DNA of 64,000 nt from Actinomycetes bacterium (GTDB taxonomy: Bacteria > Actinomycetota > Thermoleophilia > RBG-16-64-13): assembly GCA_024637035.1 (NCBI GenBank), contig JAGXFW010000020.1, positions 1 through 64,000 of the forward strand. The letters run 5' to 3'. The position numbers and the translations under genes were made by a program. The notes under the pieces were generated by a model, which did no database searches, had not been told where the DNA came from, and saw nothing but the letters and a program-made list of their open reading frames with translations. Below are positions 40,390-43,236 of this stretch, piece by piece; the stretch's first letter is position 1, and each line of letters opens with the position of its first letter.

Positions 40390-40854
40390 CTAGCCCAGCG
40401 AGTCGATGAGCGCCAGCATCTCGCTTGTGGGCGGGATGTCGGTCATATCGTGCCCGTAGTGCACGAAGCGCACCACCCCGGTCTTGTCCACCAGCACCTG
40501 GGCCGGCATGCGGCCGAACCTGAACAGCTTCACCTTCTGTCCGTAGAGCTTGAGTACCGTGTGCTCGGGGTCAGGCAGGCCGACGAACGGAAGGTCGTTC
40601 TTGGTGAAGTAGTCGGCGAAGGCATTCGGGCTCTCGGGCCCTACGACCACCACCTCGGTGTCACGGCTCACGAACTCAGCGAAGTCCTGGCGCAACTGCG
40701 CCATGTGCGCGCGGCAGTACGGTCAGACGAAACCCCGGTTGAACACGAGCAGGATGTGTCGTTTCCCGGCGAAGTGCGAGAGGGAGACCGGGACGCCCTT
40801 GTAGTCGGGGAGTGTGAAGTCCGGCGCGGGGGTGCTCAGTTCGACTTTCGGCAT
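40390..40854 (-). CDS. Selenocysteine-containing peroxiredoxin (AhpC/TSA-like, U-P-Y-C), UGA recoded
   Basis: 154 residues read from ATG 40854 through an in-frame TGA at 40725-40723. Before it lie MPKVELSTPAPDFTLPDY and LLVFNRGFV; after it come PYCRAHMAQLRQDF and the rest of a thioredoxin-fold peroxiredoxin. The TGA is at the peroxidatic Cys of the usual GFxCPYC motif, giving U44-P-Y-C47. A hairpin 20 bases after the TGA could be the SECIS. GAGGAG precedes the ATG. Ordinary gene calling would start at ATG 40704 and lose the active site. Probably reduces peroxides with a thiol partner in the cytoplasm. Confidence 0.87.
40689..40702 (-). promoter_or_regulatory. Putative bacterial SECIS hairpin
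   Basis: GGCGC-AGTT-GCGCC on the minus strand: five-bp stem with a loop containing G-U, starting 20 bases and looping 25 bases after the UGA. This lies in the range used by bacterial SECIS elements for SelB binding. Not verified by folding. Confidence 0.55.
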
Positions 40855-40920
40855 TCGGGCTCCTCGTTCGGTATTCGGGCTGCTCGTTCGGTTGTTGGGC
40901 TCCTCGCTCGGTTGTTGGGT
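40853..40920. repeat. 20-bp tandem repeat, 3.4 copies, over the selenoprotein start
   Basis: Units at 40853, 40873 and 40893 (ATTCGGGCTCCTCGTTCGGT and close variants) plus eight bases of a fourth. On the minus strand each unit carries a GAGGAG/GAGCAG ribosome-binding-like core, and the ATG of the selenoprotein lies in the last unit. Confidence 0.85.
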
Positions 40921-43236
40921 CTATCCCATGATCCGCTTGAACAGGTTCTGCGCCGCCCCCTGGTACTTCTTCACCACCAATACCGAAGTGGGCGAGTAGC
41001 GGGCCACCTTCTCAGGTATCTCTCCGAACAGGACCTTTCTGAACAACGGCTCGATGGCGGCGCCTATGACCACGAGGTCGTAATCGCGCCCCGCCTTGGC
41101 GATCCCCCCGGCGATGCTCGTCGATTCGTAGAGGAGGGAGTCTTGCGCGACTCCCTCGTCGAGTCGGTCCAGAGTCTCCTCCACGCGCTTCAGGCCGGCT
41201 TGCCGTTCGCTCTCCGTGGCGTCAGGGCCTACCACATGCAGACCCGTCACCGGGAAGTCGAGTTCTTTCGCGATCGCGCTCACCATCTTGGCGGCGAGCT
41301 TCGCGTTCGGTCCGCCGGCCGAGGGCAGGAGACAGTTGCGCGGGATCTTGGCCCCGTCGGGCTTGAGCAGCATGACGTCGCAGGGCGCCAGTCTCACGAC
41401 ACGATCGGCGATCTCGCCGAGCATGCGGTCGCGGGTGTTCGTGTAGCCCTTCCAGCCCAGCACCACCAACCCCGCCCGATGTCGTTCCAGCGCCGCCAAG
41501 AGCCCGTCGGAGGCCGAGTGGGCCACGACGAAATCCGTCTGCAGTTCCACTCCCGCGCGCGCGGCCCAGGCCCGTGCCTTCGCCAGCAGGGGCTCGCGGT
41601 GATGGGCGAACCGGAGACCGTCGTGGATGGGCATCTGACGGGGCACCTCGACCACTGTCACGGCGACCAGACGCACGTCTCGCTGCCGAGCCACGGGATG
41701 CGCGAACGAGAGGAGGAGTTCGACCGTATCGGGGTTGTGGAGGGCCACCACGACGGCCGGTCTGCGCTCGGCCACCGCACTGGGCCGTCCGAGGAGCACC
41801 TGCGGCTCGAACGGCGCCGCTTTCTTCTGGAACACCGCATAGTAGAGGAGCAGCCCCACCGCGATCCATCCCGCCGTGACGAACCAGGCGAGAGGCGCGA
41901 ACTTGAACTGGTAGACAGCGAGGAACATGTTCAGCGCCAGCGCCAATATCGGAACGTACGGGTAGAACGGCATGCGGTAGAGCCGGCGGATCTCGGGGTA
42001 CTTGCGGCGCAACGCGATCACCGAGAGGTTGACCATAGAGAACGTGAGCAGGAACATGAGGCTTGCCGCGGAGCCCACGATCTCGAGGGGCAGGAGCAGG
42101 GCGATAGCCAGGAGGATGATCCCCGTGGCGAAGATGGCCACGCGAGGGGTGCGCCGCACGGGGTCGATCACTCCCATGCGCGCGGGTAACAACCTGTCGC
42201 GACCCATCGAGAAGGCCACGCGCGAGGCCGCCATCACGGTGGCGTTCAACGCCGACATGGTAGACAGTAGACCGCCGAACACGATGAGTGCGACCCCGAA
42301 CGCGGGCATGAAAGACTCAGCCGCCTTCACCATGGCGGTCTCCCCGTATCGTCCCAGGAACTGCCACGCGGGCTCGCCGCTCTCGGGCCTGATCGCGCCG
42401 AGGGCCACCACGAGGATCAGCAGGTACACGGTCACCGTGACGCCCAACGAGATGAAGGTTGCCCGCGGGATGTTCTTCTCCGGGTCCTTGATCTCCTCCG
42501 CCACCGTGGCGATCAGGTCGTAGCCCTCGAAGGCGATGAAGGTGAGCCCCATGGCGATGAAGACGCCGCCGAGCCCCTTGGGCAGGAAGGGCGTGAACCC
42601 TTCAGCCACTGCTTGGGGCTCCCCGAGCAGTCGCGAGAGTCCGAAGGCGATGAACACCGCGAGCACGGCCAGCTTGGTCATGGTGAGCAGGTTCTCGGCC
42701 TTCCCCGTGACCCCGGCGCCTCGCGCGTTCAGCCAGATGAAGGCCGCGGCGATGGCGACCGTCACCACGAGGACCGCGGCGCGATGGCTGGATAGCGCGA
42801 ACAGCGCTTCCGCCAGACCGGGGGTGTACTTCCCGAAGACCTCCCAGAAGTAGCTGGCGAAGCCGAGGGCGTACAGGCTGCACGCGACGGTGTAGGCGAA
42901 CCAAAGCATCCAGCCCGCGACGAAGCCCGCCGCTCCCGGGAACGCTTCGCGGACGAAGGAGTAGCCTCCGCCTGCTCTAGGCATCGCCGAGGCCAGTTCG
43001 GCGTAGGCGAACGCGGTGAGGAGCGTGACCACCCCGTTCAGAGCGAAGGCCATGATCGCCGCCGGCCCCGCTTCGCCCGCGGCGATGCCGGTGAGCACGA
43101 AGATGCCGGCGCCGATCATGGCGCCAACGCCGATCATGGTCGCCTCGAACAGGCCCAGGTCGCGCGCGAAGGTCACCTCCGCGCCGCTGATGCCCTGACC
43201 CGAACGCTTCTCGCCGTTCTGGCTTCTGCCTGTCAT
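40921..43236 (-). CDS. APC-family amino acid transporter with C-terminal USP domains
   Basis: About 771 residues. Residues 1-460 form a 12-TM amino acid/polyamine/organocation permease with the GVGAMIGAGIFVLTG start motif. The C-terminal 300 residues hold two universal-stress-protein-like domains (VVVALHNPDTVELLLSF...; ...DLVVIGAAIEPLFRKVLFGEIPEKV). USP-tailed APC transporters are known and their tail probably regulates uptake. ATG 43236 and GTG 43251 are both possible starts. The minus-strand downstream end adjoins the repeat before the selenoprotein. Confidence 0.88.
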   Translation of the reverse strand: MTGRSQNGEKRSGQGISGAEVTFARDLGLFEATMIGVGAMIGAGIFVLTGIAAGEAGPAAIMAFALNGVVTLLTAFAYAELASAMPRAGGGYSFVREAFPGAAGFVAGWMLWFAYTVACSLYALGFASYFWEVFGKYTPGLAEALFALSSHRAAVLVVTVAIAAAFIWLNARGAGVTGKAENLLTMTKLAVLAVFIAFGLSRLLGEPQAVAEGFTPFLPKGLGGVFIAMGLTFIAFEGYDLIATVAEEIKDPEKNIPRATFISLGVTVTVYLLILVVALGAIRPESGEPAWQFLGRYGETAMVKAAESFMPAFGVALIVFGGLLSTMSALNATVMAASRVAFSMGRDRLLPARMGVIDPVRRTPRVAIFATGIILLAIALLLPLEIVGSAASLMFLLTFSMVNLSVIALRRKYPEIRRLYRMPFYPYVPILALALNMFLAVYQFKFAPLAWFVTAGWIAVGLLLYYAVFQKKAAPFEPQVLLGRPSAVAERRPAVVVALHNPDTVELLLSFAHPVARQRDVRLVAVTVVEVPRQMPIHDGLRFAHHREPLLAKARAWAARAGVELQTDFVVAHSASDGLLAALERHRAGLVVLGWKGYTNTRDRMLGEIADRVVRLAPCDVMLLKPDGAKIPRNCLLPSAGGPNAKLAAKMVSAIAKELDFPVTGLHVVGPDATESERQAGLKRVEETLDRLDEGVAQDSLLYESTSIAGGIAKAGRDYDLVVIGAAIEPLFRKVLFGEIPEKVARYSPTSVLVVKKYQGAAQNLFKRIMG

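Follow-up and report, generated by a model that had tools for sequence, protein, structure and literature searches.

A putative Prx-like UxxC selenoprotein gene with a conserved in-frame TGA and bSECIS hairpin in an Actinomycetota genome

The interrupted gene and its surroundings

The window, meaning the whole stretch of 64,000 nucleotides that was analysed, belongs to a genome assembled into 34 contigs for a total of 3.57 Mb. On its minus strand we found a gene whose ATG lies at 40854-40852, whose TAG lies at 40392-40390 and whose codon 44 is an in-frame TGA (40725-40723). The features of the locus are the following:

40390-40854, minus strand: CDS of the predicted Prx-like UxxC selenoprotein, 154 residues followed by TAG, with TGA44 read as Sec
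40723-40725, minus strand: in-frame TGA, putative Sec44, first position of UxxC; TGA in 67/67 distinct homologues
40714-40716, minus strand: TGC for Cys47, the last residue of UxxC, which in alignments coincides with the peroxidatic Cys of BCP/AhpE-type peroxiredoxins
40860-40865, minus strand: Shine-Dalgarno-like GAGGAG, 5 nt 5' of the ATG, seen in the sequence
40688-40703, minus strand: putative bSECIS hairpin TGGCGC-AGTT-GCGCCA, loop at 40694-40697 with G in second position, 25 nt past the TGA
40847-40919, minus strand: intergenic 20-bp tandem repeat of about 3.3 copies, containing the GAGGAG

A single frame remains open on either side of the TGA, and its translation gives the motif FNRGFV-U-PYCRAH. 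When read through, the gene encodes a 154-residue AhpC/TSA protein whose matches to PF00578 (AhpC-TSA, 1.5e-22) and Redoxin (5.1e-18) both span the TGA. The original prediction, made from the letters alone, had reported this TGA with an open frame on both sides, and the sequence, its translation and the PF00578 match all agree. It had also reported a GAGGAG before the ATG and a GGCGC-AGTT-GCGCC hairpin 20 nt after the TGA, and both are present in the sequence, the former at 40865-40860. Finally, it anticipated that ordinary annotation would yield a truncated 104-aa protein deprived of its active site; the open reading frame 3' of the TGA is indeed 104 aa long when taken alone.

The tandem repeat takes up the space that separates the permease-Usp and selenoprotein genes. 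Its copies carry either GAGGAG or GAGCAG, which places the ribosome-binding site inside the repeat array. A 579-aa open frame (40450-42189, plus strand) runs antisense to the selenoprotein and permease genes; it looks like a GC-rich shadow frame, since stops interrupt the corresponding antisense frames of most homologues. We found no conservation of the gene neighbourhood that would hint at a partner or substrate: the permease-Usp and thioesterase genes beside it were seen at none of the other loci, and none of the neighbour clusters was widespread. We also scanned the window crudely for TGA in GC3-rich frames close to Cys, Ser or Thr, and saw no other convincing selenoprotein.

Predicted fold and active site of the read-through product

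The AF2 model of the read-through protein (pLDDT 87.5) adopts a peroxiredoxin fold, its best PDB match being Bcp1 (3drn, TM 0.84) together with AhpE (TM 0.84); ResA was also matched. By sequence, the closest PDB entries were likewise BCP/AhpE peroxiredoxins, then ResA. Comparison of these sequences also gives the layout of the predicted active site. In the alignment with peroxiredoxins, the Thr/Ser of PxxxTxxC is matched by Sec44 and the peroxidatic Cys by Cys47, and Arg40 stands in for the Pro. The strict PxxxTxxC/U motif is thus absent, R40-G-F-V-U44-P-Y-C47 standing where peroxiredoxins have P-x-x-x-T-x-x-C. If one counts back from Asp123, the conserved Asp that follows the central strand, the invariant Pro117 is found at the position of the catalytic Arg. 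The same position holds Arg in L122 and Pro in the ResA-like L123, two other genes of the genome, and an invariant Arg115 is found two residues before Pro117. When ResA is aligned, UPYC lies over its CPHC.

The original prediction had described a peroxiredoxin with UGA at the peroxidatic site. As to the family, its reading stands for the fold and the PF00578 domain and fails for the PxxxTxxC motif, including Arg40 in place of the Pro; as to the site, it has to be corrected, Cys47 and not Sec44 taking the peroxidatic position. A true 1-Cys or 2-Cys peroxiredoxin using Sec as peroxidatic residue would agree with the best fold matches and with the domain. We consider it improbable in view of the residues just listed and of the separate true peroxiredoxin with a TPVU motif (L122) in the same genome. 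With Sec44 matching the Thr and Cys47 the peroxidatic Cys, the protein is better described as Prx-like UxxC than as a true peroxiredoxin. It combines a peroxiredoxin fold with an active-site motif in the style of thioredoxin/ResA, a type known in reviews as Prx-like thiol:disulfide oxidoreductase (UxxC).

Conservation of the TGA and of the hairpin after it

A search of close relatives and of GTDB contigs yielded 39 distinct sequences, the window copy included, in which the homologues are 49-70% identical to the window protein; TGA occupies codon 44 in all 39. An independent profile search of 199 genomes of one Chloroflexota class then gave 59 matches at E <= 5.5e-37, all with an internal TGA. 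The 28 new distinct sequences aligned from this search also have TGA at codon 44 (28/28), which brings the total to 67/67. These clade I homologues, defined by FNRGFxUP[FY]C, come from Actinomycetota, Chloroflexota and Desulfobulbaceae. A FastTree run grouped them together with a low support at the base (0.2), and we do not claim their monophyly from the tree.

No Cys form at codon 44 was seen among the 67 distinct FNRGFxUP[FY]C sequences. Cys was found at the Sec44 position in distant homologues, namely L096 (FGRGTW, TGT), L101, L102, L104 and L105 (FYRGDW, TGC) and L118 (FLRYFG, TGC). The alignment of Cys homologues over U44, suggested as a check with the original prediction, was therefore possible with distant ones only, every close homologue having TGA. 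Cys homologues exist for nearly all known selenoprotein families. We tentatively raise the possibility that FNRGFxUP[FY]C is a Sec-only branch, whose chemistry Cys could not replace and which would have been fixed together with its SECIS across three lineages. If so, a Prx-like enzyme with an obligate need for selenium would be informative.

Two further clades were also compared. The sister clade II, with FGRGTWUPxC, is represented in other genomes of the phylum by the FGRGTW-U-PxC members L094, L095, L097-L100, L103, L106, L108-L110, L113-L117 and L121, L106 having a Trp instead of the second Cys. Clade III mixes TGA and TGC homologues.

Under the standard code the TGA is a stop, and an ATG (40704) follows seven codons later. 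The gene could then be a pseudogene, or encode a truncated protein and a separate 104-aa product starting at this ATG. We judge this very unlikely: the TGA sits at the exact same codon in 67/67 homologues, no Shine-Dalgarno motif lies 5' of ATG 40704, and Met51 is not an obligate start, since L148 has a Leu and some members of clade II a Val in its place. Moreover, the median omega is 0.26 upstream and 0.18 downstream of the TGA, with dS near saturation, which indicates purifying selection on both sides of the TGA, the downstream part included. A sequencing or assembly error at 40723-40725, with TGC or TGT as the true codon, might be imagined for a single draft assembly; it is hardly conceivable when dozens of independent assemblies from several phyla carry the identical TGA and hairpin. 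In effect, neither a stop or pseudogene nor a sequencing error can account for the TGA.

The published bSECIS model calls for a stem of 4-16 bp, an apical loop of 3-9 nt with a G in its first two positions, a distance of 16-37 nt from the UGA and an MFE at or below -7.5 kcal/mol (PMC13188914). The clade I hairpin falls within these limits, with 6 bp, an AGUU loop (4 nt, G second), 25 nt and -10.0 kcal/mol. Its folding energy was considered as SECIS evidence and rejected: with z of +0.6 to +1.4, it is not unusual for the GC-rich local composition. As the energy is unremarkable for the composition, the case for a SECIS rests on evolutionary conservation.

We analysed synonymous sites in the 39 sequences, whose GC3 ranges from 0.38 to 0.93. 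At the codons forming the hairpin, A52 is GCG, Q53 is CAG and L54 is TTG in 39/39 sequences each, and R55 is only CGC or CGT, which keeps the pair as G-C or G-U. Synonymous entropy is 0 at A52, Q53 and L54 and 0.62 bits at R55; the 38 further conserved codons average 1.41 bits, and not one of them lies below 0.62 of its synonymous-entropy expectation. In the independent sample, ATGGCGCAGTTG was recovered exactly in 25 of the 28 sequences. Of the cells of the six-pair stem, 99.2% are paired: a single cell is unpaired, and the only substitutions, at two pairs, turn them into G-U. With so little variation, clade I offers no compensatory change in this stem. The hairpin noted in the original prediction is thus, from this comparison, a conserved bSECIS, the support coming from codon freeze and conservation and not from folding energy.

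In clade II, the hairpin is GUAUAUG-GGU-CAUAUAC, unrelated to the clade I stem; it starts 14 nt after the UGA and exhibits both-sided (compensatory) changes at two pairs. A mismatch breaks it in L096, the Cys member of the clade. In clade III, the TGA members have in common a hairpin with a GGUC loop, which is altered in the TGC members. The gene set illustrates clearly how a working bSECIS can be told from a chance hairpin by its frozen synonymous sites and its compensatory changes.

Selenocysteine machinery, proposed function and known families

The original prediction implied that the organism makes selenocysteine. Consistently, selA, selB, selC (tRNA-Sec) and selD were all identified by sequence in the genome: the tRNA-Sec scored 72.6 bits (tRNA-SeC with anticodon TCA for ARAGORN), SelA 549 bits, SelB 345 bits with its neighbours in frame, and SelD 402 bits. 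Sequences above the selA cut-off were found in 31 of the 32 genomes reached via other homologues, the remaining one having selA fragments; among 61 genomes of close relatives, selA was found in 9 of the 11 that hold the gene, the other two being MAGs of 76% and 86% completeness. The 32-genome and 61-genome sets overlap, some genomes being in both under different handles. Reassignment of TGA to another amino acid such as Trp in this organism would account for read-through at codon 44, and is scarcely credible next to a tRNA-Sec with its TCA anticodon and selA, selB and selD, to host selD and ResA-like genes terminating in TGA, and to distant homologues having Cys, not Trp, at the Sec44 position. 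None of the observations that the original prediction had named as fatal to it (a genome devoid of sel genes, a read error, homologues with a real stop) was made.

Other TGA-interrupted genes were noticed in this genome. SelD has its own in-frame TGA, within HGSG-U-ACK (L018, start 1484, TGA at 1531; G000:C7), with a GCCCCAA-GGAC-UUGGGGC hairpin 3' of it, and looks like a selenoprotein itself. A PF00578 search of the genome returned three genes, L122, L123 and the window gene, each with one in-frame TGA. L122 (1411-1896, minus strand; G000:C32) is a peroxiredoxin of the AhpC type whose TGA occupies the true peroxidatic position (DWTPVUTREL). L123 (1441-2040, minus strand; G000:C31) is a ResA/TlpA-like gene of lipoprotein type; its TGA lies in WUPTC and precedes a GGGCG-GAGA-CGCCC hairpin. 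Every AhpC/TSA-family gene detected in this genome, three in total, is thus interrupted by a TGA in frame.

Taken together, the gene is very probably a selenoprotein gene, whose UGA44 would be decoded as Sec by means of the bSECIS and whose product would be a Prx-like UxxC thiol:disulfide oxidoreductase or reductase. Sequence comparison shows the Sec coding, the SECIS, the Sec machinery of the host, the predicted fold and the arrangement of the active site. The ribosome would read UGA44 with selenocysteine supplied by tRNA-Sec and SelB, the latter recognising the stem-loop with its A-G-U-U loop 25 nt past the UGA. The product would take a BCP/AhpE-like peroxiredoxin fold, with the Sec-Pro-Tyr-Cys motif where a helix begins. 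If CxxC proteins are a guide, Sec44 should attack and Cys47 should resolve. From the motif, we infer a nucleophilic Sec44 that becomes linked to Cys47 as a selenenylsulfide, to be reduced in turn by a cellular thiol system; redox direction, substrate and reductant all belong to this inferred part. The activity may be that of a Prx-like thiol:disulfide oxidoreductase or reductase, possibly also that of a peroxidase. The Sec-Cys pair is not universal: position 47 is Cys in 37 of the 39 homologues and Thr in L082 and L084, which would need an external thiol if Cys47 is the resolving residue.

Prx-like thiol:disulfide oxidoreductase selenoproteins with PF00578 and UxxC or UxxU, such as WP_010940744.1, have been described (PMC13188914, PMC9312934). 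The window protein resembles them in being a bacterial Sec protein with an AhpC/TSA domain and a UxxC motif, and on these features would belong to the published UxxC family; its FNRGFxUP[FY]C subfamily differs in showing no Cys form in 67 sequences. SelL is also Prx-like, but with UxxU it has two Sec where the window protein has one. The best NCBIfam match of the window protein, a model that also hit all 39 members scanned, was NF040769 (SelL-related redox protein), a Prx-like domain with a redox motif; the window protein scored 82.9 bits, below the curated cut-off of 120, over residues 9-105 only. None of the NCBIfam models reaches its cut-off on this protein, and since ordinary annotation would yield a truncated 104-aa product, many MAGs of Anaerolineae and related Actinomycetota probably carry the misannotation too.

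Sec-containing peroxiredoxins (Prx, TxxU) share the fold superfamily and a Sec in the active-site loop. In the window protein, however, Sec lies three residues earlier, at the Thr position, and the TxxU Prx of this genome is the separate gene L122. ResA/TlpA proteins have their CxxC aligned with UxxC (CPHC against UPYC) and a Pro at the Pro117 position, whereas the window protein has no N-terminal extension or membrane anchor ahead of its domain and finds its best fold matches in BCP/AhpE. We found no report of the FNRGFxUP[FY]C subfamily, by motif or by lineage, in the literature searched, which covers a minority of subscription papers. Judged on sequence comparison, the family type is already in the literature, while the subfamily, its apparently Sec-only distribution and its frozen SECIS appear to be new.
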